DNA of 64,000 bases. It comes from Streptomyces halstedii. GTDB lineage: Bacteria; Actinomycetota; Actinomycetes; Streptomycetales; Streptomycetaceae. Location of the stretch: positions 174,240 through 238,239 of the forward strand of contig JOAZ01000009.1 in the NCBI GenBank assembly GCA_000720535.1, read 5' to 3'. Of this stretch, positions 1,823 to 55,500 are shown one piece after another (the stretch's first letter is position 1; every line of letters starts with the position of its first letter). The notes beneath the pieces are model-generated. The model searched no databases, was not told the DNA's origin, and saw nothing but the letters and a program-made list of their open reading frames with translations. A program made the translations under genes and the position numbers.

Positions 1823-2686
1823 ATGACCGCCTGGCTGAGAGACGAAACGACCCTGCACCCCGGTGACACCCCCGCCCCGCACCCCACCGCCGGCATCCTC
1901 GCCGCGCTGCGGGACGGCACCGACGACGGCAGCGGGGAGCGTATCGACGACCGGCTCACGGACCGGGCGGGCGAGCGGCTCAGGAATCAGGCAGGCGAGC
2001 GGATCAGCGACCGGCTCACGGACCAGGCGGGCGACCGGGCCGGAGGGCGCGCAGGGGGCCGGTCGGGAGGGCGCGCCGACGAGTGGGCCCGGGAGCGGGC
2101 GGGCGACCGGGCCGCCCAGGTCACCGCGTCCGGCGCGGCCTGGCTCGCGGGGGCCTCCCCGTACCCGCGGAGCACCCTCGCGCGGTGGGAGGCACACCCC
2201 ACCGCCCCCGGTGTCCTGCCGTGCGGTTCGTCCTTCGACGTGGTGAACGTGCCCGCGCTCTTCGGGCGCCGGATGCTGGAGCGGCTCTGGGCGGAGGGCC
2301 CCGGCTCAGGCCCGGTGGCCACGCACCGCGGCCGGCTGCTGCTGTTCGCCGCCCCCGGGACCGCCCAGCGGCTGCCCTCGCTGCTGACCTGGGAGGAGTG
2401 GGGCACCGGCACCCCCCGTGTGCACCCGGCGTCCCTGCCGGCCCTGCTCTGCCACGGCACGGGCGACGCGGTGACGGTGCCGCCGCTCGTCGCCGGTCCG
2501 GGCACCGGCGGGCCGCGCTGGCTGGTCGCGCCCGACACCCGTGCCCCCTGGCTGCCGGGACCCGATGTGCTGCTCTGGGCCTGTGTGCGGGTGAGCCGGT
2601 CGGCGGCCCCCTCGACCACCGGGTATTCGATTTTTCCTCCCGCCGATCCGGGTGCTAATGTCTACGACGTCAGCAGGCGCCGCTAG
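1823..2686 (+). CDS. Prim-pol-like (bifunctional DNA primase/polymerase N-terminal) protein
   Basis: About 287 residues from the ATG at 1823. The block GSSFDVVNVPALFGRRMLERLW followed by GPVATHRGRLLLFAAPGT is typical of the small Streptomyces proteins annotated as bifunctional DNA primase/polymerase N-terminal domain. No helicase domain follows, so it is a lone domain. Residues about 38-95 form an insert rich in AGER/DRLTD/GGR repeats that looks expanded and disordered. The stop codon (2684-2686) lies inside the following tRNA-Lys gene, so CDS and tRNA overlap by 10 bases. Assignment is by remembered family pattern; replication activity is unproven, and the repeat insert could have impaired it. 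Confidence 0.55.
   Translation: MTAWLRDETTLHPGDTPAPHPTAGILAALRDGTDDGSGERIDDRLTDRAGERLRNQAGERISDRLTDQAGDRAGGRAGGRSGGRADEWARERAGDRAAQVTASGAAWLAGASPYPRSTLARWEAHPTAPGVLPCGSSFDVVNVPALFGRRMLERLWAEGPGSGPVATHRGRLLLFAAPGTAQRLPSLLTWEEWGTGTPRVHPASLPALLCHGTGDAVTVPPLVAGPGTGGPRWLVAPDTRAPWLPGPDVLLWACVRVSRSAAPSTTGYSIFPPADPGANVYDVSRRR
1948..2034 (+). repeat. Two 27-bp direct repeats, 60-bp period, inside the prim-pol-like gene
   Basis: Copies at 1948-1974 and 2008-2034 differ at one base and encode DRLTD(R/Q)AG. The spacing is a multiple of three, so the frame is kept. Confidence 0.75.
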
Positions 2687-2750
2687 CTCAGTTGGTTAGA
2701 GCAGCTGACTCTTAATCAGCGGGTCCGGGGTTCGAGTCCCTGGCGGCGCA
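2677..2750 (+). tRNA. tRNA-Lys (anticodon CTT), copy 1
   Basis: Full cloverleaf. Acceptor arms are GCGCCGC and GCGGCGC with discriminator A. The anticodon stem CTGA/TCAG encloses loop CTCTTAA, anticodon CTT. The T arm is present (GGTTCGAGTCC). CCA is not encoded. Pair 7:66 is C-G here, T-A in the other two copies. The leader GTCAGCAG directly before the gene is shared by all three. Confidence 0.97.
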
Positions 2751-2756
2751 CAGACG

Positions 2757-13273: not shown

Positions 13274-13347
13274 GCGCCGTTAGCTCAGTTGGTTAGAGCA
13301 GCTGACTCTTAATCAGCGGGTCCGGGGTTCGAGTCCCTGACGGCGCA
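13274..13347 (+). tRNA. tRNA-Lys (anticodon CTT), copy 2
   Basis: Differs from copy 1 only by T at position 7 and A at 66 of the acceptor stem, a compensated pair. Anticodon loop CTCTTAA. Preceded by GTATTATT, a likely -10 element, and the shared GTCAGCAG leader. Confidence 0.97.
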
Positions 13348-13355
13348 CAGACGAC

Positions 13356-18093: not shown

Positions 18094-18167
18094 GCGCCGT
18101 TAGCTCAGTTGGTTAGAGCAGCTGACTCTTAATCAGCGGGTCCGGGGTTCGAGTCCCTGACGGCGCA
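18094..18167 (+). tRNA. tRNA-Lys (anticodon CTT), copy 3
   Basis: Identical to copy 2 over 74 bases (acceptor GCGCCGT/ACGGCGC). Preceded by CGGGTAAAGT (likely -10) and the GTCAGCAG leader. CCA not encoded. Confidence 0.97.
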
Positions 18168-18175
18168 CGCAGAAG

Positions 18176-44472: not shown

Positions 44473-44607
44473 ATGCCGCCCTACCAGCCTTCCGCGGACC
44501 GGCAGTACGAGATCCCGACGACCGGCAGCAAGCGGCTCCCGCCCGCGCCCCGTTACGTCGAATCGCTGACACATCAGGGGTACGGGTTCGAGGCGGCCAG
44601 GCGATGA
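44473..44607 (+). CDS. Small 44-residue protein, unknown
   Basis: Starts at an ATG behind GAGGAAG; sequence begins MPPYQPSADRQYEIPTTGSK and ends GYGFEAARR. No signal peptide, Cys or membrane helix. Its stop overlaps the ATG of the next frame (ATGA), which supports translation. Another frame (ATG 44381, with AGGGGGA upstream) overlaps it and is less convincing. This marks the left border of the accessory island. Confidence 0.4.
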   Translation: MPPYQPSADRQYEIPTTGSKRLPPAPRYVESLTHQGYGFEAARR

Positions 44608-44981
44608 ACGACGAGACACTCGACACGGCGATGCCGGCCGACGGTCGACAGGGGTACAAGGCGCAGGCGCTCGGCCACTTCAGAGCCTGTCTGAAGGCCG
44701 CCTCCCGCTCGCACGCCGATTCGCTCACCGTGATCAGCCGCACCAAGCGCAGCCCCTCAGTCGGCCACCGCTGGCTGACGGCATGCGCCAAGGCCGACTT
44801 CACCTGCGCCATTGTCGGCCCCGAAGAGAACCCCATCGCCACTCAGTTCCATGGGCCTCGGTGTGAGGCGGCACCCCTCTGCCCGGTGATGAGTTCCGGT
44901 CCCATCCCCTCTGGCTTTGTGCCGGGTGCCGCCATAAATCCGGCGAAGGCCGTAATGGCAACGGCTTTGTTCCGTCCATGA
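44604..44981 (+). CDS. Hypothetical protein, unknown
   Basis: A 125-residue frame overlapping the small gene by ATGA. The N-terminal half (MNDETLDTAMPADGRQGYKA and a basic helical stretch) looks like ordinary protein; the C-terminal 50 residues are Pro/Ala/Cys-rich and may be out of frame after an indel. I recognise no family. It may be a decayed gene at the island edge. Confidence 0.35.
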   Translation: MNDETLDTAMPADGRQGYKAQALGHFRACLKAASRSHADSLTVISRTKRSPSVGHRWLTACAKADFTCAIVGPEENPIATQFHGPRCEAAPLCPVMSSGPIPSGFVPGAAINPAKAVMATALFRP

Positions 44982-45083
44982 GCACAACAAGCCAACAGAC
45001 GGCATACGTTCACTCCCAAGCAGTCTATTCTTCCCAATCAGAGCCACTCATCTCATCATTAACGCCTCAGAAAAGCGAGACTC

Positions 45084-45938
45084 GTGACCGTCGACAGCAC
45101 ACCCCAGGGCGACCTTCCCGAGGACGACCGCCAGCTTCCACCACCAGGGTCAGAGGAACTCCGGTCTCTACGACTCAGCGCCAGTCACGAAAAACTCTAT
45201 AACTTTCTTTACTCGCGCCGCACCAACCCTCCGACCATGCGAGAGATCCGCGCCTTCGTGGCGGCGGGCGACGGAGAGGCACCTTCCCAGACTGACCGGC
45301 GAGTTAGAGATCTCCGGGGCCATTTTCACATCATTACAGTTCGGGACGGCCGCAACCACCGCTATTCGCTAGTTGAACGAAAAGCAGAGGGCGTCACCGG
45401 AGTTCGCAAGGCGATCGGCAAACGCTTGCGAGCCCAGATCCTCGCCCCTCAGCGATGTGCCCAGTGCGGGAAGACTCCTCTTGACCACCAGGTGCTCCTT
45501 GACATCGACCATAAGGTACCAGTCGAGTGGGGCGGGAGCGACGACCCTGACAACCTGCAACCCCTCTGCCAAGAATGCAATGCCGGCAAGAAAGACTACT
45601 ACGCCACTTATAATCAGTACGCTGATGAAATTCGATCGGCAGCACGCCACGATGAGCCTCACCAGAGAATTGGCGAGCTACTCAAGGCATTTAACGGCAA
45701 TTGGGTCCCGTCCGATCTCCTGGGAACCGTGGCTTCAATGAAGCAGTACCAGGAAGACTGGCAGAAGCGGCTCAGGGAACTTCGCACACTAGGATGGGTC
45801 ATTCCGTCAAAGCGCGCAAAGGACCCAGCCAGCGGCCGGTCACTTACCTACTATCGCGTAGACTCGTGGCATCCATGGCCCCCTGGCGGGATCGCAGCAG
45901 AGATCAGGCGCCGCGAAAAGCTGGATCGCACCGAGTAG
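45084..45938 (+). CDS. HNH endonuclease flanked by two winged-helix-like modules (HNH1)
   Basis: A 284-residue protein. The central HNH nuclease (about 128-175) reads CAQCGK, then DIDHKVPVEWGGSDDPDNLQPLCQECNAGKK: zinc cysteine pairs and the D-H catalytic motif are complete. Before it, QTDRRVRDLRGHFHII (about 70-85) and after it, WQKRLRELRTLGWVIP (about 228-243) look like copies of one winged-helix recognition motif. The DNA is clearly less GC-rich than neighbouring loci, suggesting transfer. GTG start; the ribosome site is weak. The vsr gene follows 44 bp later. Proposed role: site-specific cleavage of DNA not modified by the island methylases. Confidence 0.85.
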   Translation: MTVDSTPQGDLPEDDRQLPPPGSEELRSLRLSASHEKLYNFLYSRRTNPPTMREIRAFVAAGDGEAPSQTDRRVRDLRGHFHIITVRDGRNHRYSLVERKAEGVTGVRKAIGKRLRAQILAPQRCAQCGKTPLDHQVLLDIDHKVPVEWGGSDDPDNLQPLCQECNAGKKDYYATYNQYADEIRSAARHDEPHQRIGELLKAFNGNWVPSDLLGTVASMKQYQEDWQKRLRELRTLGWVIPSKRAKDPASGRSLTYYRVDSWHPWPPGGIAAEIRRREKLDRTE

Positions 45939-45982
45939 GTCTCCTAAACGTGCCCCGCGACCTCTCCGACAGATGAGGCGAG

Positions 45983-46447
45983 ATGACCGAAGACTGGGAG
46001 CGCCCAGCAGGCTCCTGGGCCTCTTCTGCAGCCAGGCGCCGGAACATGCAAGCGATCCGCAGCCGCGACACAAAGCCGGAACGCCTGATCCGTCAGCTCG
46101 TCCACGCAAAGGGACTCCGCTATCGCGTCGCAGCCAAGCCTTTGCCAGACCTTCGCCGGACGGCAGACATGGTCTTCCGTCCGGCGAAGGTGGCGGTCTT
46201 TATCGACGGTTGCTACTGGCACGGCTGCCCTGAGCACTACGTGTCACCCAGAACAAATCCCGTTTATTGGTCAGATAAAGTTACCCGAAATATGGCCCGC
46301 GACCGCGACACTGACGAGCGCCTGACTGAAGCAGGGTGGATTGTCCTCAGGTTTTGGGAACACGAGAATCCAACTAACTGCGCCAACCACATTAGTGCGA
46401 CTGTGGAATCCAGAAGGCAAGACGTAAAACCGAAGAACCTTAACTGA
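45983..46447 (+). CDS. vsr: Very short patch repair endonuclease (Vsr)
   Basis: A 154-residue nuclease that nicks 5' of T in T:G mismatches left by deamination of 5-methylcytosine. MQAIRSRDTKPERLIRQLVHAKGLRYRV, DMVFRPAKVAVFIDGCYWHGCPEH (catalytic Asp and zinc-binding His/Cys) and GWIVLRFWEHE are the family signatures. Many so-called Vsr proteins linked to plasmid-type R-M systems may instead be the restriction enzyme, as with the related V.-type nickases. Its 3' end overlaps the convergent methylase gene by 8 bp. Confidence 0.92.
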   Translation: MTEDWERPAGSWASSAARRRNMQAIRSRDTKPERLIRQLVHAKGLRYRVAAKPLPDLRRTADMVFRPAKVAVFIDGCYWHGCPEHYVSPRTNPVYWSDKVTRNMARDRDTDERLTEAGWIVLRFWEHENPTNCANHISATVESRRQDVKPKNLN

Positions 46448-47714
46448 TCTTCGTTCGCAATTCTGCAAACTTTACGTGCCGCTCGTGATCCTCTTGCCCC
46501 ACAAAACCCTTGAAGCCAGCAAGCCTATAAACTCGCGCATCACCTTGCTCCTTATGCTCAATGACGAAGTCGCGAGATAGATGCGCGATCCTGCGTTCAA
46601 AATCCTCAAGGGCCATTTTCTGCCCAGCTACCTTCTGCAGCTCAGCTGCAGAAGCGAACCCATCGATTCCTCGCAGTGCCCGGTAGAGCGAGTCGTGCAG
46701 AACTTCGGTTTCCACCGCGTCCCGGTCGCGCTTGACGCCCTCGTGCCTGAGTGCCATACGGATGCTAGTACCCACAGCACGGGCAACCGGGGGCGGGAAA
46801 GCGTTACCGATCTGACGGTACCTACTGGTTTTACGGCCACTGAACCGCCAGTGATAGCCCTCGCTTGGATCCCAGCCCTGAAGGATTTCGACCATTTTCG
46901 TAGTAAGCCGCGGCTTCCCGTCCACGGGAAAGTCGGGCCCTGGCGCCTCGTCCCAGACGCCCATGCCATCGACTCCCAGCTCTCCCCACGCTCGTTTGGC
47001 GCGGGTGGGGCCAAGGTCCGCTCCACCATGCTTCTTGGAACCACCCACGATGGTCGGAGCGATGTCGTTGGCCTTGGCAGCCCAAGCATCCGCCCCGGGC
47101 CAGCCATTGGATCCCATGAGCTTCCGCAGGGCCGAGCCCACCGTCTTATTTGTCCGCTCTTCCGCAGGCCAGCGGAACCACGGAACATCCTCGTCTCGCA
47201 ACGCGACCAATACGAACCTGGGCCTCAGCTGGGGCACCCCGAAGTCCGCTGCGTGAAGGAGCCTCCAGTCAGACCAGTACCCGAGATCCTCCAGGCGGTC
47301 CTTCATGTGCTGACGGTAGGCAGAGAAGCGCGGAGCGGACAGACCACGCACATTCTCCAGCAGGAGCGCCCGAGGCTCCATCTGTCCGGCAAGCTCGACC
47401 GCCCATGCGAAGAGATCGCGCTCGTCGGTCGCGCCGAGCTGCTTGCCCGCGATAGAGAAGGGAGGGCAGGGCACACCGCCGGCGAGGAGCGCGAGGCCCT
47501 TGTACTCGGGACTCTTCGGATTCCAGGTACGAGGATCGGCGACGTCACCGCGCTTCACGTCCCATCGACGGTTCAGCTCAAGGGTGTTGGCCGCATTTTC
47601 GTCAATCTCGACTGCTGCAAGGTGCTCAAATCCGGCTTTCTCCAGCCCAAGAGCCTGGCCGCCCGCTCCGGCACAGATCTCGATCACAGTCAAATCTCGA
47701 TCACTGGAATCCAT
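46440..47714 (-). CDS. DNA (cytosine-5)-methyltransferase with C-terminal winged-helix-like tail
   Basis: 424 residues. Motif I is VIEICAGAGGQALGLEKAGF; motif IV with catalytic Cys is GGVPCPPFSIAGKQLG; motif VI is LLLENVRG; motif VIII PRFVLVALR; motif X RQIGNAFPPPVARAVG. The target-recognition region spans about 200-290. Beyond motif X, unlike a standard Dcm, a 90-residue tail follows, with DFERRIAHLSRDFVIEHKEQ resembling the DRRVRDLR motif of the island HNH proteins. ATG start. A paralogue lies at 48742 (same GSKKHGGADLGPTRAKRAWGELGV block). It should protect host DNA. Confidence 0.93.
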   Translation of the reverse strand: MDSSDRDLTVIEICAGAGGQALGLEKAGFEHLAAVEIDENAANTLELNRRWDVKRGDVADPRTWNPKSPEYKGLALLAGGVPCPPFSIAGKQLGATDERDLFAWAVELAGQMEPRALLLENVRGLSAPRFSAYRQHMKDRLEDLGYWSDWRLLHAADFGVPQLRPRFVLVALRDEDVPWFRWPAEERTNKTVGSALRKLMGSNGWPGADAWAAKANDIAPTIVGGSKKHGGADLGPTRAKRAWGELGVDGMGVWDEAPGPDFPVDGKPRLTTKMVEILQGWDPSEGYHWRFSGRKTSRYRQIGNAFPPPVARAVGTSIRMALRHEGVKRDRDAVETEVLHDSLYRALRGIDGFASAAELQKVAGQKMALEDFERRIAHLSRDFVIEHKEQGDARVYRLAGFKGFVGQEDHERHVKFAELRTKIS

Positions 47715-47869
47715 GGCTGCTCCTGGCTTGGCTTAATACGAACACGTAAGTGTCGCAGAGTCGCCGGTAGCCTTGCCGTAGGTCAGCCGTCCGTGCGTAC
47801 TGCGGACAGCATTATCACAGGTCCCAGTGACAACTGGCGTGGAGCAGCCCAAGGGCATGGGCAAGCGCT

Positions 47870-48598
47870 TCACTCGGCCGCCCCTCCCCCTCGGGAGTCG
47901 ACCAGCTCCTGGAGCTGGCTCCGCATCCCGTCCCGTAGCGCACCTGGCAGCTGCCGGTACAGCCCCCACGCGTAATCGATGAGCGTGAGCGGCCTGACAT
48001 CAGCGATCATCCACTCAAGCAGCTCACGCCTCTGCCTGGCAGGAAGCGCCTTGACCCGTTCCCAGACCTGCCCGGAGTCCGTCTGGAGACCGGCCAGGTT
48101 TCTGACGCGCTCGTTGCAACGAGCACACTCGGTAATGAAGCCTTCTGTGGCGGCAGTACCGCCAGCAGCGTGCGGACTGACCCGGCCCAGAGTCAGCCGT
48201 GCCCTGGACCCCGGCTCGTCTGGATACGCCTCGGCCGCACCGATGCCGCACCGTCGGCACATGTACAGATCCCGCTCGTACACATCCCGTCGCATCCTGG
48301 CGCTGATCTGACGCAGGCCCGCAGCACGGTGTTCCCGATCCCAGACCGGCGCCCCGATGGCCTCCAGGTAAAGCTGGTCCGGCTGCAGGCTCGGCTTGTC
48401 CAGGTTCGTCCTGATGATCCAGCCAGCCGGCCGCAGATCACGCATACGCCGGTCCACCTGCTCAGTCCCGCTGATCGCCGCACGCAGGGCGGCCTTCGAG
48501 AAAGTGCTCCCGACGCCAACCTCATCGCGCAGCCACAGAGCGACGCGGACTCGGGCACCCAGGTCCGTATTCCGCCAGTTCAGGTCCGATGAATCCAT
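47870..48598 (-). CDS. HNH-type (treble-clef) protein with N-terminal winged helix (HNH2)
   Basis: 242 residues from the ATG at 48598; an in-frame start at 48652 is possible. The N-terminal 75 residues hold FSKAALRAAISGTEQVDRRMRDLRPAGWIIRTN, shared with HNH3. The zinc module is CRRCGIGAAEAYPDEP and ECARCNERVR, a pair of CxxC knuckles as in HNH nucleases, but the central D-H pair is less obvious, so nuclease activity is less sure than for HNH1. It lies 155 bp upstream of the first methylase on the same strand and is divergent from the second across a 40-bp palindrome. Confidence 0.72.
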   Translation of the reverse strand: MDSSDLNWRNTDLGARVRVALWLRDEVGVGSTFSKAALRAAISGTEQVDRRMRDLRPAGWIIRTNLDKPSLQPDQLYLEAIGAPVWDREHRAAGLRQISARMRRDVYERDLYMCRRCGIGAAEAYPDEPGSRARLTLGRVSPHAAGGTAATEGFITECARCNERVRNLAGLQTDSGQVWERVKALPARQRRELLEWMIADVRPLTLIDYAWGLYRQLPGALRDGMRSQLQELVDSRGGGAAE

Positions 48599-48654
48599 CA
48601 GCCGCCCACCATTCGAGCATTCGTGCGGATCATGACACCTTCGAATGATCACAT

Positions 48655-48694
48655 TAGCTTGCCGCCACTTGCCGCGGCAAGTGGCGGCAAGCTA
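48655..48694. promoter_or_regulatory. Perfect 40-bp palindrome between divergent HNH2 and methylase genes
   Basis: Left arm TAGCTTGCCGCCACTTGCCG (48655-48674) is exactly complementary to 48675-48694 with no spacer. Each arm has two CTTGCCG copies 10 bp apart; the centre is CCGCGG. It is a likely operator for both genes or a cluster of recognition sites. Confidence 0.85.
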
Positions 48695-48741
48695 TCGCTG
48701 ACAGGGTGCGTCACGTACCGGCTTAACGAGAAGAGCCCCAG

Positions 48742-49917
48742 ATGAAGCGAATGAGCAACCTCCGTCCTCAGCTACTCCGTCCCCTGTGCATCGAGCTCTG
48801 CGCGGGTGCGGGAGGACAGGCATTGGGCCTGGAACGGGCGGGGTTCGAGCACACCGCACTGGTCGAGCTGGACTCCGATGCGGTACAGACTCTCAGGTCT
48901 AACCGTCCTCTCTGGAACACCATGAGGGCCGATCTCCATGATGCGTCATCCCTCGTCCTACGAAAGCCCGGCCAGGAAATCGCGCTCCTCGCCGCCGGCG
49001 TCCCCTGTCCACCGTTTTCCCTGGCTGGAAAGCAGTTGGGCGCCGCGGACGAACGGGACCTCTTCCCTGCTGTACTGCGCCTTGTCGCGGACATCCAGCC
49101 TGCGGCCGTCATGGTGGAGAACGTAAAAGGGATCCTTCAAACACGATTCGACTCCTACCGTGAGGACGTCCTCCGTGCACTTGAGGAAGCGGGCTACCGC
49201 ACAAGCTGGCGGCTCCTTCGCTCCTGCGATTACGGCGTGCCGCAGCTCCGGCCCCGAGCCGTACTCGTCGCGATGAGAGCCGAAACATTCGCCCACTTCG
49301 AGTGGCCCAAGCCGACCGCGTGCCAGCAAACGGCGCCGACAGTGGGCAGTGTCCTGTTTGAGTCAATGGCTTCTCGGGGCTGGGAACTCGCCCGTACGTG
49401 GGCGGACGGAGCGATGCGCATCGCTCCCACCCTCTGCGGTGGATCGCGCAAGCACGGCGGGGCGGATCTGGGACCTTCCCGCGCTCGTCGCGCGTGGGCA
49501 GAGCTCGGTGTCAACGGCTCCAGCGTCGCGGATGACCCGCCGGCACCGGGCTCAACGTTGCCAGTGAGGCTCACAGTGCGGCAGATGGCATTGCTCCAGG
49601 GTTTTCCGGAAGAGTGGCGTTTCACGGGACGGAAGACCTCCGCTTTCCGTCAGGTTGGCAACGCGTTCCCACCTCCGGTTGCTGAAGCGGTAGGGGTGAA
49701 CATCGCCAGGGCTCTGTCTCAGGCGGGGGCCGCGGCGGGAGCCTGTATCCCCCAGACTGACCGCGCCGGAACACGTTGGCAGGCAGTGCCCTGTAGCCCG
49801 ACCGGGCAGTCAGCCCCGGAACCAGCACATGAGCTGGAACATGGATGCGTACTGACTCCCAGCTGGCTTGCATGGACTGGTCCTGCGGTACGACTGACAG
49901 CAGCCACTGCCGACTGA
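48742..49917 (+). CDS. DNA (cytosine-5)-methyltransferase, second copy
   Basis: 391 residues. Motif I CIELCAGAGGQALGLERAGF, motif IV GVPCPPFSLAGKQLGAADERDLF with catalytic Cys, motif VI VMVENVKG, motif VIII PRAVLVAMR, motif X RQVGNAFPPPVAEAVG. It shares the GGSRKHGGADLGPSRARRAWAELGV block with the first methylase, so the two are recent-looking paralogues or a strand-specific pair for an asymmetric site. The last 65 residues after motif X are unlike the family and run antisense to the DUF3883-like gene for 296 bp. ATG with GAGAAGAG upstream, divergent from HNH2. Confidence 0.92.
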   Translation: MKRMSNLRPQLLRPLCIELCAGAGGQALGLERAGFEHTALVELDSDAVQTLRSNRPLWNTMRADLHDASSLVLRKPGQEIALLAAGVPCPPFSLAGKQLGAADERDLFPAVLRLVADIQPAAVMVENVKGILQTRFDSYREDVLRALEEAGYRTSWRLLRSCDYGVPQLRPRAVLVAMRAETFAHFEWPKPTACQQTAPTVGSVLFESMASRGWELARTWADGAMRIAPTLCGGSRKHGGADLGPSRARRAWAELGVNGSSVADDPPAPGSTLPVRLTVRQMALLQGFPEEWRFTGRKTSAFRQVGNAFPPPVAEAVGVNIARALSQAGAAAGACIPQTDRAGTRWQAVPCSPTGQSAPEPAHELEHGCVLTPSWLAWTGPAVRLTAATAD

Positions 49918-50488
49918 CCTCGGCAACACTCAAGGCACTCATGTCCGCTCCTACAAGGACTGCGCCCATCAACCACTCGGGGTCCGAGGCCATCACTTCG
50001 TACTCGTGGCGCGTCAGATGAACCACAAGCCGGGTGGGGTCAGTCGTTGACTTCACCTCAAGGTGCATCCCTTCCCCGGAGGGGAGAGCGATAGCGATGT
50101 CGTACCCGTAGGCATCGGACACCGCTGCCACATGCGTCACAGAGGCCAGGCCAGTTCCTCTCAGAAGCGCGAGCAGCGCACGCTCCCCCGCCGTGCCTGT
50201 CTGGGACAGAGCCTCGTTTACCTCAGGGCTCCAGAGAACCCGCGGAACGGCCCCGTCCAGCTCATGGGAGACGTCCGTTCCTATATGCACCACTGGGCGT
50301 CCGGAGCTAGTGACCATGCCCGTCTCCCTCAACCACACCAGTCCGTCGGCATACTGGACAGGAGTCAGGTCCGCGTAGCGAGGGTGGTGGGTAAAGAGAG
50401 CCCTTGCTCGAGGCACGTCTGCCACATGCAGGAAGCTCAGCCACCGAAGCGCCGCTCGACGCGTACCTTCACCGAGTGGCGACGGCAT
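49622..50488 (-). CDS. DUF3883-like (PD-(D/E)xK-fold) protein
   Basis: 288 residues from the ATG at 50488. The core (about 115-200: GERALLALLRGTGLASVTHVAAVSDAYGYDIAIALPSGEGMHLEVKSTTDPTRLVVHLTRHEYEVM) is a DUF3883-type restriction-nuclease fold: D in YDIAI and E-x-K in LEVKST form the presumed active site. It overlaps the helicase stop by 20 bp, so both are in one operon. After about residue 230 the chain is low-complexity and runs antisense through the methylase 3' end, so the functional end may be earlier. In defence loci DUF3883 domains accompany helicases and restriction modules. Confidence 0.72.
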   Translation of the reverse strand: MPSPLGEGTRRAALRWLSFLHVADVPRARALFTHHPRYADLTPVQYADGLVWLRETGMVTSSGRPVVHIGTDVSHELDGAVPRVLWSPEVNEALSQTGTAGERALLALLRGTGLASVTHVAAVSDAYGYDIAIALPSGEGMHLEVKSTTDPTRLVVHLTRHEYEVMASDPEWLMGAVLVGADMSALSVAEVSRQWLLSVVPQDQSMQASWESVRIHVPAHVLVPGLTARSGYRALPANVFRRGQSGGYRLPPRPPPETEPWRCSPLPLQQPEVGTRCQPDGKRRSSVP

Positions 50489-52307
50489 CGACGTGCCTGA
50501 GGAGTGCCCGTACATCAGCCATGTCCATGCCTCCAGCCACCGGTGCCTCTTCCTGTAGATCGCCGAGTTGCTGAACTGAGGGGTCGTCCAGAATGACGCC
50601 CATGAATTCCAGCTTCTCCTCCAGACGAAGCGCCACGACTTCGTCCACGGTTCCCCGTGAGGCGAGCACTGTGACGTTGGTTTCGGTGCCTGGCGCGAGC
50701 CCGAGGCGGTGGATCCGGTCCAGGCTTTGCAGGAACCGGCCGGCCATAAAGTCACGGTCTACGTAGACTGCGTCATGGCATACATGGTGCAGGCTGATCC
50801 CCTCACCCAGGGTGGCAGGGTTGGACAGTAGTACGGCGCAATCGGGATCCTCCCGGAAGCGGCGGATTTCGTCTTCACGGTCCGGGGTGCCTCCGTGAAC
50901 GACAGCTGGCTGATAGCTCGCGAACATACGCTGCATTGTGCTGAGGCTACGTACAAATGTTGTCCACACCAGGGTCTTCCGCCCCTGAGCGGCATTCTCT
51001 GCGACGATACTCAGCGCCTCCTGATATTTCGGTGAGAGCTCGTAGTCCGGCAAATCTCTCATCAGCGCATACAGTGAGTCCCCTAGCGGAACCTCCAGCG
51101 GAGGAACCTGGTAGGTCAGCGGTTCATAGCGACTGGCTCCCTCGGCAAGCAAAGCGGGACTCGTGGCCGCCATGAGAAGTCGCAGCATCGCCTTGCCCAA
51201 GGCGTCGAAGTCACCCCTCGATGCTTCCGCGCGCGCTGAGTACCGGCCTACAAGTGCGTCGTAGATCTCCCGGTGCAGTTCCGGCATATCGACATACCGG
51301 ATTTTCGGCTCAAAAGGCGGTAGCCCAAGCTCTGCCTTCGTCGTCCGGCTGAACAGAGGACTCAGCACCTGGCTGGCGTAGGCCAGATCGCCACCTGCCA
51401 CCGCGCCTGTGACCACCCGGCGGCCATGACCAGGCCACACAAAGGAGAGCAGGTTCTCCAAGTCCCGAGCCCCGTTGGGCGCAGGGGTACCTGTAAGAAT
51501 CAGGCGCCGACGGCTCAGCGGGCCGAGCGCCATGCACGCTGAGCCGTAGATGCCGCGAGTGCCAAGCTTCATGCGGTGGGCCTCATCGAGAATCACCATG
51601 GAGGGCACCGCCCTCAGCCACGAGGCAAGGGCGGCAAGCGATCGGTCGAGACGCTCGTAGTTGACCACCATGATCTCCAGGCCAGCGCCCGGAGACTTGT
51701 CCATTACCCCGAAGTTCAAAGGCTCCTTGAAACAAACGGTGTTCTCAGACTCCCATGTTTCGTATGCGGATTTAGGACACACGACAAGGAGTCGGCGGGC
51801 TACACCACGTTCACGCATGGCTGCAAAGACAGCGAGCCCCACTCGCGTCTTGCCGGCACCGGGAACGCTGAAGTTAGCTCCATGCCGCAAGGCCAGGAGC
51901 TGGCTAATATCCCGTAGCTGAAACCCTGTGAGGTCCGCGACCCACTCACCACCGAGCAGACCAGTGACAGCGTCCGGTGAAAGGGCTGGACTCGTGCTCT
52001 CGGTACCGCTCTGCTCAAGCTGGCGCTCCGCGGCGTCAGCATCGTCCAGAACACTTCCGACCAGCTGAGCGAGTTCTTCATCCCAGACCACGTCTTCCGG
52101 CGAGGGCCAAGCGCCCAGCTCTTCAATGCCTACCAGAAATTCATCAAGGTCGATCTCCGCAAACAGAGGGCCGCGCTGGCTGCTAGCAGGAAAGCGGGTA
52201 GCCAAATGGGCAAGGTCCGCCTGGTGGCCTTCCTTTGCCCGCAAGAGGGCGCGGGTGCGGGTGACATCGAACGTGATTTTCAGAGATGGCTCTCCTCCCT
52301 GAGTCAC
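50469..52307 (-). CDS. SNF2/SF2-family DNA helicase
   Basis: 612 residues. The first 130 are a separate N-terminal domain. Motif Q/I is LTGFQLRDISQLLALRHGANFSVPGAGKTRVGLAVF (Walker A GAGKT about 161-166); motif II is VILDEAHRMK; III is LILTGTPAPN; the second RecA domain has KTLVWTTFVRSLSTM, VVHGGTP and the motif VI region GRFLQSLDRIHRLGLAPGT. The RxxR-Q-DRIHRLG form is Snf2-type translocase. GTG start with GAGGAG, overlapping the ParB-like stop (GTGA). It probably powers DNA scanning for the DUF3883-like partner. Confidence 0.9.
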   Translation of the reverse strand: MTQGGEPSLKITFDVTRTRALLRAKEGHQADLAHLATRFPASSQRGPLFAEIDLDEFLVGIEELGAWPSPEDVVWDEELAQLVGSVLDDADAAERQLEQSGTESTSPALSPDAVTGLLGGEWVADLTGFQLRDISQLLALRHGANFSVPGAGKTRVGLAVFAAMRERGVARRLLVVCPKSAYETWESENTVCFKEPLNFGVMDKSPGAGLEIMVVNYERLDRSLAALASWLRAVPSMVILDEAHRMKLGTRGIYGSACMALGPLSRRRLILTGTPAPNGARDLENLLSFVWPGHGRRVVTGAVAGGDLAYASQVLSPLFSRTTKAELGLPPFEPKIRYVDMPELHREIYDALVGRYSARAEASRGDFDALGKAMLRLLMAATSPALLAEGASRYEPLTYQVPPLEVPLGDSLYALMRDLPDYELSPKYQEALSIVAENAAQGRKTLVWTTFVRSLSTMQRMFASYQPAVVHGGTPDREDEIRRFREDPDCAVLLSNPATLGEGISLHHVCHDAVYVDRDFMAGRFLQSLDRIHRLGLAPGTETNVTVLASRGTVDEVVALRLEEKLEFMGVILDDPSVQQLGDLQEEAPVAGGMDMADVRALLRHVDAVATR

Positions 52308-53725
52308 GAGCTCTCCTCACGGACTGCTTCGAGCAGCCACGTCAGGCCGTCACCGGGCTCCTTGATGCTCCGTACGGATTCGACAGCCAGCTTGGAAAGG
52401 CTCGACCGCAGCTTGAGCATCGCCTCATCAAAAGTTTCCTCATCCAGACTGCGTGACGCGCGGGAGAGGACTAGATCCGTAATGCACTGGTCAATGTCCT
52501 GGCACGCGTCCATGATGCGGTCAGGCGCCGCCTGCTTCTTCTTCCGGACCCGGGCGTCCTTGCCGGCGGGTTCCAGAGCCTCCTCCACCGCAGCCTTCAC
52601 CGCACTGAGCGTCTTAGCCGCTTCTGCTGCCTCTGCCATGGGGACGTCGCCGCTGGCTCCTTCGACAGCCTTCACCCTGAGCACAGAGTCAGTCAGCGCG
52701 CGTGCTTCAGCCACCTTCGGGTCAGCCGCACGAACCGTCCTGCCCAAGCCGGGGATAGCGACACCCGCCGAAGGTGTAGCCGACGGCTTGGCCTGGACAG
52801 ACTCGGGAAGGCGCTTGTCAAGGTATCGGGCCTTGAAGTCCGGTTCGATCAGCCGCACATCCGTCTTCGAGAACCCGAGAACGATGGCCGTCAGCCGGCT
52901 CTCTTTCATCAGGTCAGCCTTCTCCTTGCTGGCCGCTGACTCCTTCACGTACCGGCGGTGTAGTTCCTTCAACTTCTCCTGGTGGTCCTCGAAGTCCAGA
53001 AGCCGGAGCTGGGCGCCACCGGACTTGCTCCTCTCGACAAGGTCGTTGAGCGTGGCCAGAATCCAGCGATCCTGCTCGCAGGCTCGTGCTGTGGTGCGGA
53101 ACTCGCGGGCGATGTCCTGCACAGTGCGTCCGAAGCTCACCTGCTCATCAATGGCCAGGAGGCGGTTGATGTAGGAGTAGTCACGCCGGTGATCTTTGCG
53201 GAGCTGGAGGGAGAGTTCGACTCTGTTGATGTCATCCCACGTACACGACGATGGAAGGACACCCACACGAATGCTGGGCTCACCAAGGTCCTTCAGCGCG
53301 GCCCGGCGGGTATTGCCGTTGACCAGGATGCCGTCGCGAGTGATGAGCCCAGGGTCGTTCTGCTTGAACTCCCTCAGGCTCTCCATCAACGCATCGAAAT
53401 CGGGATCCCGCTTGGACGGGTCAGCCGGCAGCGCTCGCAAGAGGTGGTGCAGATAGTCCTGGCTGTCAGCACTGAAGGCATCACCATCCAGACCCCGGTC
53501 ACGTACCGGGTCATGGGTGCGCTGAGCACGAATCCGGTGTGTGCCAGGGTTGTAGTACAGGGAGTCAACGGGCATGGTGATGACCTCAACCTGGATCGGC
53601 TCCCCCCGCCACTCAATGCGTACCGTCTCGTGGACGCCACCGGTCTCCCGGGACTCCTTGAGCCTCTGCTCAACCAGGTCCTGGTTTTCGGCCGCGAACG
53701 GCGGGCGCCCGAAGTCCTTGCTCAC
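52304..53725 (-). CDS. ParB/sulfiredoxin-fold protein
   Basis: 473 residues. The region 50-200 (VEVITMPVDSLYYNPGTHRIRAQ, then DGILVNGNTRRAALKDLGEPSIRVGVLP) has the ParB N-terminal fold: NGNTRRAAL stands for the GExRxxA-like nucleotide-binding box. A HTH-like section follows (YSYINRLLAIDEQVSFGRTVQDIAREFRTTARACEQ). The C-terminal 200 residues are helical and charged (RKKKQ). No ParA partner or parS is near, so a defence role is likelier than segregation; DndB-type and related proteins share this fold. GTG start with GAGGAG. Overlaps the helicase by 4 bases. Confidence 0.82.
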   Translation of the reverse strand: MSKDFGRPPFAAENQDLVEQRLKESRETGGVHETVRIEWRGEPIQVEVITMPVDSLYYNPGTHRIRAQRTHDPVRDRGLDGDAFSADSQDYLHHLLRALPADPSKRDPDFDALMESLREFKQNDPGLITRDGILVNGNTRRAALKDLGEPSIRVGVLPSSCTWDDINRVELSLQLRKDHRRDYSYINRLLAIDEQVSFGRTVQDIAREFRTTARACEQDRWILATLNDLVERSKSGGAQLRLLDFEDHQEKLKELHRRYVKESAASKEKADLMKESRLTAIVLGFSKTDVRLIEPDFKARYLDKRLPESVQAKPSATPSAGVAIPGLGRTVRAADPKVAEARALTDSVLRVKAVEGASGDVPMAEAAEAAKTLSAVKAAVEEALEPAGKDARVRKKKQAAPDRIMDACQDIDQCITDLVLSRASRSLDEETFDEAMLKLRSSLSKLAVESVRSIKEPGDGLTWLLEAVREESS

Positions 53726-53790
53726 AGTGGTTCTCCTCAGCTCAGTGACTAGGTGTGCGGGAGAGCCGCCCGAAAGCGGTTCCCAGGGAA

Positions 53791-54465
53791 CTACGAAAGG
53801 GCGTCGCGGACCTTAGTCCGCGACTCCTCGGGCAGCGTGCGGTACTGAGCCCAAAGCCGTTCAGCAGCGCCAAACTCGCGCTTGTCAGCCTCGATCCAGC
53901 CGGCCAGGAGATTCCGCTCCAGCCCGCCCAGGCCTGCAATGCCTTCCAATACGGCACCCAGATCAGCGGACTCCTTCCGGCCGCCAACCCGACAGCGGTT
54001 GCATTCCGAGACCAGCTCGACCGTCTCCCCCTCACCGTGCGGCAGCTTCACTACGCGGCGAGCGATGTCCAGCTGGGCAGCCTCGTACGAGTCCGCGTAC
54101 GTCTCCCCCGGGCTAATGCCGCATGAGCGGCACAGATGCCCGTCGCGTGCCAGCACTTCGCGGCGCTGCGTCTGTGTAAGTGAGACGCCCGACTTCGTCG
54201 CCTTGCCCGGCTCCCAGACAGGTGCCCCCGGCTTCACGAAGCGCTGTTCGTGCTGGCCGAGCGTGATGTCCTCACGGTTGGTGTCAATCTGCCAGCCGTA
54301 GTCACGCAAGTCACGGACACGTCGGTCAGCCTGGCTGATGCCAGGGAACGCCGCCTTCACGTCCTCCTTGGTGAAGATGTTGCCTTCGCCGACCACGCTG
54401 ATCAGCCACAAAGCGGACCGCTTCATGGTTCCGAGCTTCTCGTCCGTCCACGAGGGCAGAGTCAT
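53791..54465 (-). CDS. HNH-type protein with N-terminal winged helix (HNH3)
   Basis: 224 residues, a clear paralogue of HNH2. N-terminus FTKEDVKAAFPGISQADRRVRDLRDYGWQIDTN, then GAPVWEPG and RREVLARDGHLCRSCGISPGETYADS ... SECNRCRVGG with two CxxC knuckles. The C-terminal helix block (LLAGWIEADKREFGAAERLWAQYRTLPEESR) also matches HNH2 (LLEWMIADVRPLTLIDYAWGLYRQLP). Good AGGAG site before the ATG. It leads the helicase operon (65 bp before the ParB-like gene) and is divergent from the XRE regulator. Confidence 0.75.
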   Translation of the reverse strand: MTLPSWTDEKLGTMKRSALWLISVVGEGNIFTKEDVKAAFPGISQADRRVRDLRDYGWQIDTNREDITLGQHEQRFVKPGAPVWEPGKATKSGVSLTQTQRREVLARDGHLCRSCGISPGETYADSYEAAQLDIARRVVKLPHGEGETVELVSECNRCRVGGRKESADLGAVLEGIAGLGGLERNLLAGWIEADKREFGAAERLWAQYRTLPEESRTKVRDALS

Positions 54466-54684
54466 CCCGATCTCCTCAGGTCAGATACACAGCGGGCGTG
54501 CCAGACCCACGAGTCAGGGCCTCAGCGATCTCAAACCTTGCCGGTCAGGACGCAACCGCGCTACCTCCTGGAGGGTTTCGAGGGGCGATGGAAAACTTCC
54601 CGGCTTCCGGTAGCAGCCTTGGGCGCAGAGACTCGGACGTGCACACTTGTCCATCCCGTGCCGTGATCAGCTCAGGGAGTTCGT

Positions 54685-55500
54685 TTGTCCCCTAGACCGC
54701 AGAAGTGGAAGGAGCTGTCCCCCGACATCTCCGCACCACACCGGCAGTTCGTAGAGGCGCTGCGGCGTATGCGTGAACTCAGCGACCGCACACAGCAGCA
54801 GATCGCGACGGATGCCTACCTGGCAGCGACCTCCTTGTCGAACCACCTGAACGGAGGCCGTATCCCGGAGAGTGACCACCTGTCAGCGTTCTACCGGGTC
54901 CTCGATCAGGACGCTGCCAAGTACCGGAGGACCGTGCCCTACTCGCTTGATCTTCTGCTGGACCTCCGGGTGCAGGCTCTGATCAAGCACTGCACGTGTT
55001 GCTCTGTTGGCTACCCGGCCGAGTCCGCCGGTCCCCCTGAGCCGGAAGAGCACAAGGCTGTTTCGCCGGCTCCCCGGGCTGTCCGGAGACGAGCCCGCGA
55101 GCTGCGCCTCCGCCGGTACCGCCGTTCCCGTGCACTCCACGCCGAGTCGACACGGACAGAGGTGCCGGTCCCCCTTCTGGAGGGGGACCGGCACCTCACC
55201 ACTCATATCAGCGAGGCATGGCCGGAGATTATCGACCTTGCCAGGCGCCTGAAAGCAGGAAATGCCCGCGACGCGGACCTCATGCTGTGGAGTGCCGCAA
55301 CAACCTTGTCCGCAAGCAACATCCAGGTGTTCGTCGCCAGTTGCCGGTCGGCCGGCCTCGACGATGCAGCCGATCAGGTGATCACCAACGCAGCCAGACG
55401 AGACGCCCAGGCTGTCCTCAGCATTGCCGCCGCGTTCCACCACGAACAGCAGCACGAGGAGGCCGGTCGCCTGATCGCATTGGCAGCCCAGTCCACTTAG
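54685..55500 (+). CDS. XRE-type helix-turn-helix regulator
   Basis: 271 residues. The N-terminal HTH (about 15-70) reads FVEALRRMRELSDRTQQQIATDAYLAATSLSNHLNGGRIPESDHLSAFYRVL, Streptomyces XRE style. The middle is Arg-rich with a CTCCSVG Cys cluster; the C-terminal 90 residues are helical repeats (AADQVITNAARRDAQAVLSIAAAFHHEQQHEEAGRLIALAA). The TTG start has GGGAG upstream. An in-gene hairpin sits at 55159-55197. It probably controls the divergent HNH3-ParB-helicase-DUF3883 operon; operator not identified in the 219-bp gap. Confidence 0.8.
   Translation: MSPRPQKWKELSPDISAPHRQFVEALRRMRELSDRTQQQIATDAYLAATSLSNHLNGGRIPESDHLSAFYRVLDQDAAKYRRTVPYSLDLLLDLRVQALIKHCTCCSVGYPAESAGPPEPEEHKAVSPAPRAVRRRARELRLRRYRRSRALHAESTRTEVPVPLLEGDRHLTTHISEAWPEIIDLARRLKAGNARDADLMLWSAATTLSASNIQVFVASCRSAGLDDAADQVITNAARRDAQAVLSIAAAFHHEQQHEEAGRLIALAAQST
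55159..55197. other. Strong hairpin inside the XRE coding sequence
   Basis: 16-bp perfect arms GAGGTGCCGGTCCCCC (55159-55174) and 55182-55197, 7-base loop whose ends also pair. It encodes EVPVPLLEGDRHLT. Terminator-like or an inserted inverted-repeat element. Confidence 0.8.

Follow-up and report, generated by a model that had tools for sequence, protein, structure and literature searches.

In this study, a stretch of 64,000 nucleotides from Streptomyces halstedii (contig JOAZ01000009.1 of a 7.74 Mb genome; this whole stretch is called the window below) was analysed around an island of ten open reading frames (ORFs) at positions 45,084-55,500. The ten encode two cytosine-5 DNA methylases (DCM1 and DCM2), a Vsr mismatch endonuclease, three HNH-family proteins (HNH1 to HNH3), a DUF3883/NOV_C protein, an SNF2-family ATPase, a ParB-like protein and an XRE-like protein. 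Conservation among related loci demonstrated that HNH3, the ParB-like protein and the SNF2 ATPase constitute a core co-directional unit, together with a methylase and Vsr. Judged from sequence, the island may be a multi-gene, ATP-dependent cytosine-5 restriction-modification (R-M) system that works like CglI/NgoAVII and employs a dead restriction enzyme as its target reader, a reading that we hold with slightly less than even confidence.

According to this proposal, DCM1 and DCM2 would mark the host DNA, probably at GCCGGC, and Vsr would repair the T:G mismatches arising from methylcytosine. HNH3, a restriction enzyme minus its active site, would use its winged helix and dead HNH fold to bind the target where this is unmethylated, and would load the SNF2 motor and the ParB-like protein. 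The DNA would then be passed, by ATP-driven movement or remodelling, to the nuclease of a variable slot (DUF3883 here, NaeI or NgoMIV in relatives), which would cut it. HNH1 would be an extra, probably active nuclease, and HNH2-DCM2 would form a nested pair, the nuclease of which has probably lost its activity in this strain. Moreover, and with more doubt, a ParB-SNF2-DUF3883 engine might define a separate class of ATP-dependent restriction, in which the reader, an enzyme minus its active site, has arisen at least twice from unrelated methylase-paired families (winged helix-turn-helix-HNH in actinobacteria and PD-(D/E)XK-like in alphaproteobacteria). If true, a dead type II enzyme would give an ATP-driven restriction machine its specificity, the reader would be the counterpart of the type I specificity subunit, and a simple route would lead from type II to a motor-driven system with methylase, reader and nuclease exchangeable between loci. 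It would also suggest a function for genes widely found in this genus, which may limit how readily these bacteria take up DNA.

The conserved trio and its probable nuclease partners

Related loci were the best 80 of 223 relatives of the ParB-like protein in a GTDB scan. They were mostly from Streptomyces, and also from Kitasatospora, Nocardia, Amycolatopsis, Actinoplanes, Nonomuraea, others and one metagenome-assembled genome labelled Clostridia. The HNH3, ParB-like and SNF2 genes had identical order and strand in all 80, a cytosine methylase was present in 76 and Vsr in 76. The loci without both methylase and Vsr were L098, L116, L128 and L140, of which L116 (5.9 kb) and L128 (13.8 kb) are short. 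HNH2 was found in 8 of the 80 loci, accompanied by a second methylase in 7, and HNH1 in 3. In an evenly drawn sample of the phylum, 5 of 396 genomes had matches (counting that of the window; two of the matches were weak), and 46 of 295 genomes of the same genus had an HNH3-family match, including the window's own and a few that were only HNH2-like. No ParB-like relatives were found in viral contigs. Neither Pfam nor a profile search of PDB sequences gave a ParB match for the protein itself; its link to ParB comes from an NGN(T/R)R motif and from the annotation of relatives, one of which, on a Streptomyces albidoflavus plasmid, is called 'ParB N-terminal domain-containing protein'.

The GC content per kilobase is 0.58-0.65 at 45-56 kb, against 0.67-0.79 in the 10 kb before 45 kb and the 8 kb after 56 kb. 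Such a low-GC island, in which HNH1 and HNH2 come and go between loci, might simply have collected, in a hotspot, unrelated defence genes that do not work together. The fixed order of the trio, the near constancy of methylase and Vsr, and the occurrence of related genes as a set on plasmids of alphaproteobacteria (see below) argue against this explanation. As a whole it is highly improbable; it is unlikely for the core, and true in part for HNH1 and HNH2-DCM2.

A SEC-C gene (cluster k11, 18 of the 80 loci) and other flank genes recur (L117, L123-L125, L127, L136 and L150), which suggests that the system occupies one chromosomal hotspot in many Streptomyces. The SEC-C clusters c7 and k11 are one family (17/17). 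The SEC-C protein beside Vsr was considered as a hidden restriction endonuclease (REase) and rejected, because it recurs alongside other flank genes and, in the one member that was scanned, only SEC-C and a weak TPR were matched.

Nucleases were counted by profile in the 70 loci longer than 15 kb. NaeI or NgoMIV was present in 40 and DUF3883 in 17, both kinds in 2 (L073 and L087) and none in 15, which leaves 38 loci with NaeI/NgoMIV but not DUF3883 and 15 with DUF3883 alone. The two kinds nearly exclude each other (Fisher P 2.7e-5, a value overstated by the relatedness of the loci), and NaeI and NgoMIV also occur together in one locus. The NaeI of one locus matched the solved NaeI at 1.2e-89, with sequences at least 40% identical to it in 27 of the 80 loci and more distant ones in 11; the NgoMIV of one locus matched its Pfam family at 2.7e-54. 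Furthermore, methylases with a C-terminal tail like that of DCM1, which our rule places in 26 of the 80 loci, go with NaeI/NgoMIV. The NaeI counts vary with the rule: 23 of these 26 loci against 10 of the other 54 have NaeI or NgoMIV when 40% identity or more is required, and 24 against 22 by profile.

In the window, the cutter is likely to be the DUF3883/NOV_C protein, which had been overlooked in the first-pass annotation. It combines the Pfam match with the E-D-ExK residues of a DUF3883/NOV_C REase domain. The residues E, GYD and E(V/I)K were retained in all 12 rows of one alignment (from 9 of the 19 loci that had a match, the window and two plasmids) and in all 6 rows of a second set (the window and five alphaproteobacteria). 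One account of R-M operons describes DUF3883 as an REase domain fused to SNF2 (PMC3710099).

Throughout these loci, the trio is constant while the REases change. NaeI and NgoMIV act alone as type II enzymes. Both points would suit a trio that is a guard or regulator of methylase and REase, one that might for example sense lost methylation or control restriction after DNA uptake, beside ordinary type II REases. We judge this improbable, however, as some loci have the trio, a methylase and Vsr without a recognised REase, and as related engines adjoin other methylases.

The HNH proteins, their winged helix and the methylases

HNH3 looks catalytically dead. In the 80 sequences of its family (from 79 loci and the window), Ala always takes the place of the metal residue, Arg (79 sequences) or Lys (1) that of the catalytic His, and Gln/Glu/His and Arg/Gly fill the later Asn columns. 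In HNH2, the catalytic His is kept in 8 of 9 aligned rows and is Arg in the window's copy alone, which is probably nuclease-dead or a step towards the HNH3 state. HNH1, by comparison, is the only HNH protein of the window with an intact HNH site, D-H, N and N being retained in each of its 5 aligned rows; it is rare, with one full-length homologue beyond the window's own in 291 genomes of the same genus. The catalytic columns of the HNH3 family and of the window's HNH2 thus rule out three active HNH nucleases, and the earlier picture of a module common to modifying and cutting enzymes fails on this count too.

The ancestor of HNH3 was likely an active winged-helix-HNH enzyme in such loci, because an HNH3-related protein on plasmid pROB02 of Rhodococcus opacus keeps GH and N and is encoded between a tailed methylase and NaeI, with Vsr next. 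In a tree with half of the HNH3 rows sampled, the 40 sampled rows and one truncated HNH3 row (L129, labelled 'other') fell on one side of a branch with support 100/99, with long-branch warnings. The pROB02 region (L190, 5342-18654) is a defence cluster that contains, in order, HEPN, DUF262, the tailed methylase, HNH, NaeI and Vsr, and then DUF1998 and helicase genes.

The first-pass annotation had reported one motif four times across HNH1 (twice), HNH2 and HNH3, and in loose form in the DCM1 tail. The four occurrences were borne out. Among the 1,513 ORFs (481,885 amino acids, aa) of the 80 related loci, 78 contained the strict pattern, [DQK][RK]R[VMLI]R[DE]LR. All 78 belong to the 84 HNH-family ORFs, and a looser pattern matched 79 HNH-family ORFs and 7 others. 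In profile comparisons, the HNH3 and HNH2 segments matched at P 1e-29. The C-terminal segment of HNH1 (HNH1_C) matched HNH2 at 1.6e-7 and HNH3 at 2.8e-6, and the N-terminal one (HNH1_N) matched HNH3 at 3.5e-6, HNH2 at 5.9e-6 and HNH1_C at 2.6e-4, these HNH1 matches covering 20-42 columns only; decoy pairs gave P 0.038-0.74. By these alignments, the four segments are one winged-helix family and the motif is above chance. An AlphaFold2 model of HNH3 (mean predicted local distance difference test, pLDDT, 84.6; predicted template modelling score, pTM, 0.49) agreed, with a winged helix (helices 13-25, 33-39 and 46-56; strands 29-32, 59-61 and 73-78) that carries the motif on helix 46-56, and with two strands and a helix further on at 132-161. 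A search of HNH3 against solved structures gave nothing informative.

The fifth segment, the DCM1 tail, makes a weak case for membership of this family. It matched HNH1_N at P 6e-5 or 5e-4 depending on direction, HNH3 at 0.0097, HNH2 at 0.022 and HNH1_C at 0.021 (out of register), the last two values being close to the decoys. The RxR..R residues, invariant in HNH3, are not retained in the tail. With this weak similarity, the lost residues and a tailed methylase in only 26 of the 80 loci, the suggestion that a shared module gives methylases and nucleases a common target recognition was not supported. The tail (46440-46745) ends in a highly conserved FKAF.GQ..H.RH, better kept than its winged-helix part.

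All 86 methylases compared (83 of the 84 matches in loci, one truncated match being excluded, the two of the window and one of Rhodococcus) share the recognition motif GGS[KR]KHGG[AP]DLGP[ST]RA. Since this single motif occurs throughout and the partners include NaeI and NgoMIV, a common target of the system's methylases and nucleases is likely. The NaeI site is GCC/GGC. NgoMIV cuts G/CCGGC (PMC4081073), a source in which another sequence is printed for NaeI. In a quick tree with long-branch warnings, DCM1 fell in the tailed clade (29 rows, support 99) and DCM2 in a clade of HNH2-linked methylases (8 rows, support 99); the nuclease labels on the methylase tree are clustered (20 changes against 51.7 when shuffled) yet switch repeatedly. 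The tailed methylases of L067-L069 lie near a helicase of about 1,820-1,860 aa, and that of L068 also near an AspBHI-like enzyme.

Relatives in alphaproteobacteria and the weight of the evidence

Plasmids of Rhizobium, Azospirillum, Kozakia and Mesorhizobium encode a protein in the position of HNH3 (slot 1), ParB, a helicase and DUF3883 in the same order as the window, with a transposase gene ahead of DUF3883 in Mesorhizobium. A methylase is present in three of these four stretches and Vsr in two. In five alphaproteobacteria, ParB was 25-32% and SNF2 36-42% identical to the window's proteins (SNF2 40-42% in the four plasmids), and DUF3883, in four of them, was 34-40% identical across 78-95 aa. 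In Paracoccus denitrificans, genes for ParB, SNF2 and a protein that shows the DUF3883 motif but gave no BLAST match with the DUF3883 protein of the window follow the gene of a methylase with SPPY, an amino-methylase motif.

The alphaproteobacterial slot-1 protein is not an HNH protein and is unrelated to HNH3. Matches to it were found in 17 plasmid records, namely the four trio plasmids and thirteen others, five of which were examined. Each of the relatives in these five, like one at a second place in Rhizobium, has its gene immediately behind that of a cytosine methylase. These six methylase-linked relatives all have the putative catalytic D..(D/E)xK, against none of the four slot-1 rows, which have Val/Ile and IQK instead; the Rhizobium slot-1 protein is 29% identical to the methylase-linked relative of Rhizobium. 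Pfam gave no family for the two slot-1 proteins scanned or for the Rhizobium methylase-linked one, and the motif points to a putative PD-(D/E)XK-like family. Moreover, the actinobacterial recognition motif was absent from six methylases encoded beside slot-1 proteins or their relatives (Mesorhizobium, Paracoccus tegillarcae, Methylocystis, Sulfitobacter, Methylomonas and Desulfosarcina) and was not seen in the readable part of the Rhizobium methylase. A different methylase would thus go with a different slot-1 protein, which, in this small sample, suits a slot-1 protein that reads the target.

Several points weigh against a motor-driven system with a dead reader. The 80 loci were chosen by ParB similarity as nearest relatives and are mutually related. 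Of the 70 loci, 15 are empty of NaeI, NgoMIV and DUF3883, and a NaeI family gene was found genome-wide in none of 12 of their genomes; the trio may therefore act without these nucleases or with one that was not recognised. NgoMIV was likewise found in none of the 12, in a search that matched nowhere at all and is hence uninformative. Two genomes were positive in the NaeI search (L117 and L122), with the gene within the locus itself. On the S. albidoflavus plasmid, no HNH3 is annotated beside ParB and SNF2, and in P. denitrificans no slot-1 gene lies between the methylase and ParB-SNF2. In addition, the slot-1 rows have another Asp two residues before the lost one, so that the loss depends on the alignment, and GCCGGC as the methylase target would follow by analogy from the partner enzymes only.

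The empty loci would fit a trio that alone is the whole effector, in which the ParB-like protein damages or traps DNA and NaeI, NgoMIV, DUF3883, HNH1 and HNH2 are independent add-ons with the same target. L127 and L150, for example, hold only a regulator-like gene, the trio, Vsr and a methylase between flank genes, and nicking of DNA has been attributed to ParB/Srx proteins (PMC12839542). However, nicking by this ParB branch would be an extrapolation, and a nuclease partner is suggested both by the near exclusion of NaeI/NgoMIV and DUF3883, in loci that are not independent, and by the ParB-SNF2-DUF3883 order in the five alphaproteobacteria (one with the transposase gene before DUF3883). A self-sufficient trio is thus rather unlikely, and an ATP-dependent R-M system with a slot nuclease remains the reading that we prefer.

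Island layout and comparison with known systems

The two cytosine-5 methylases, Vsr, the three HNH-family ORFs and SNF2 at 45,084-54,465 had been noticed before and are real, with an XRE-like ORF up to 55,500 (Table 1); the ParB-like gene, like that for DUF3883, had been missed. No gene of the system was placed at 44,604-45,083, where ORFs were listed without a profile scan.

Table 1. Genes of the island, with positions in the window
Gene product	Position	Strand	Features
HNH1	45084..45938	+	284 aa; winged helix, intact HNH, winged helix; Pfam HNH 2.4e-10
Vsr mismatch endonuclease	45983..46447	+	154 aa; TIGR00632 2.4e-39, above cut-off; in 76/80 loci
DCM1 cytosine-5 methylase	46440..47714	-	C-terminal tail of ~90 aa; Pfam DNA_methylase 9.6e-58; tailed clade; recognition motif
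HNH2, winged helix-HNH	47870..48598	-	242 aa; longer start at 48,652 possible; Arg at catalytic His position
DCM2 cytosine-5 methylase, paired with HNH2	48742..49917	+	Pfam DNA_methylase 1.1e-61; HNH2-linked clade
DUF3883/NOV_C protein, candidate effector nuclease	49622..50515	-	NOV_C 5.5e-6, above cut-off; alternative starts 50,488, 50,515, 50,755
SNF2-family ATPase	50469..52307	-	612 aa; SNF2-rel_dom 4.7e-17; Walker A, DEAH and motif VI present; 80/80 loci
ParB-like protein	52304..53725	-	473 aa; motif VNGNTRRAAL; query family for the 80 loci
HNH3, slot-1 protein	53791..54465	-	224 aa; winged helix and apparently dead HNH fold; 80/80 loci
XRE-like helix-turn-helix protein, probable regulator	54685..55500	+	HTH_31 0.0014, under cut-off

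The convergent ends of the DCM2 and DUF3883 genes overlap by about 296 bases (49622-49917), and by about 105-150 bases in the relatives L073, L087 and L034. The DUF3883 ORF overlaps the SNF2 end in the window and likewise in these three. The XRE-like protein had a tblastn match in 43 of the 80 loci, and ORF cluster k4 (71 ORFs) includes 40 so labelled. Three tRNA-Lys (CTT) genes lie in the left part of the window (2677-2751, 13274-13348 and 18094-18168) and are possible attachment sites of integrated elements.

With PADLOC, HNH3 had no match and the ParB-like protein weak matches only. DCM1 matched DruM2 (PDLC00032) and MTase_II (PDLC03304) along almost the entire protein, including the tail. 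DruM2 was matched by both methylases, and no DruE, DruF or DruG was among the printed matches of the ten proteins; membership of Druantia was rejected on the lack of DruE there. DISARM was also rejected, as DISARM_DrmD scored 37.6 bits against a cut-off of 610, DrmA had an E-value of 0.0014 and DrmB was not among the printed matches.

The wH-HNH endonucleases are described as proteins of 224-283 aa in which a winged helix is fused to HNH, with methyladenine-dependent cutting and rare methylase neighbours (PMC11037411). HNH2 and HNH3 resemble them in size and in the order of winged helix and HNH fold; however, the catalytic His is absent from HNH3 (0/80) and from the window's HNH2, and is retained in HNH1. 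The likeness to NaeI/NgoMIV systems is that relatives carry these enzymes and that the methylases share one recognition motif, whereas neither one turned up among the ten proteins of the window.

Searches of an open-access library brought up no account of the HNH3-ParB-SNF2 trio and none of a dead reader. The elements are known singly, and SNF2, HNH, cytosine methylase and Vsr have already been described together with MORC genes: Iyer et al. (2008) outlined MORC/paraMORC neighbourhoods as predicted operons with an SWI2/SNF2 helicase, HNH DNases and, frequently, a cytosine methylase and Vsr (PMC2292703). The island differs in that no GHKL ATPase is present among its ten proteins, although one is present in 17 of the 80 relatives.

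A textbook type II system consists of one methylase and one ATP-independent nuclease. The first-pass annotation had held that the locus is not of this kind, and rightly so, since SNF2 and ParB-like genes are present in all 80 loci and the SNF2 ATPase motifs are there. CglI/NgoAVII has been described as a 5-methylcytosine (m5C) system in which cutting depends on ATP hydrolysis by an SF2 ATPase (PMC4267653). In contrast to that system, none of the island's ten proteins is an R protein with PLD nuclease and B3 domains; the island resembles it, on the published description, in combining an m5C methylase, a separate nuclease and an SF2 ATPase.

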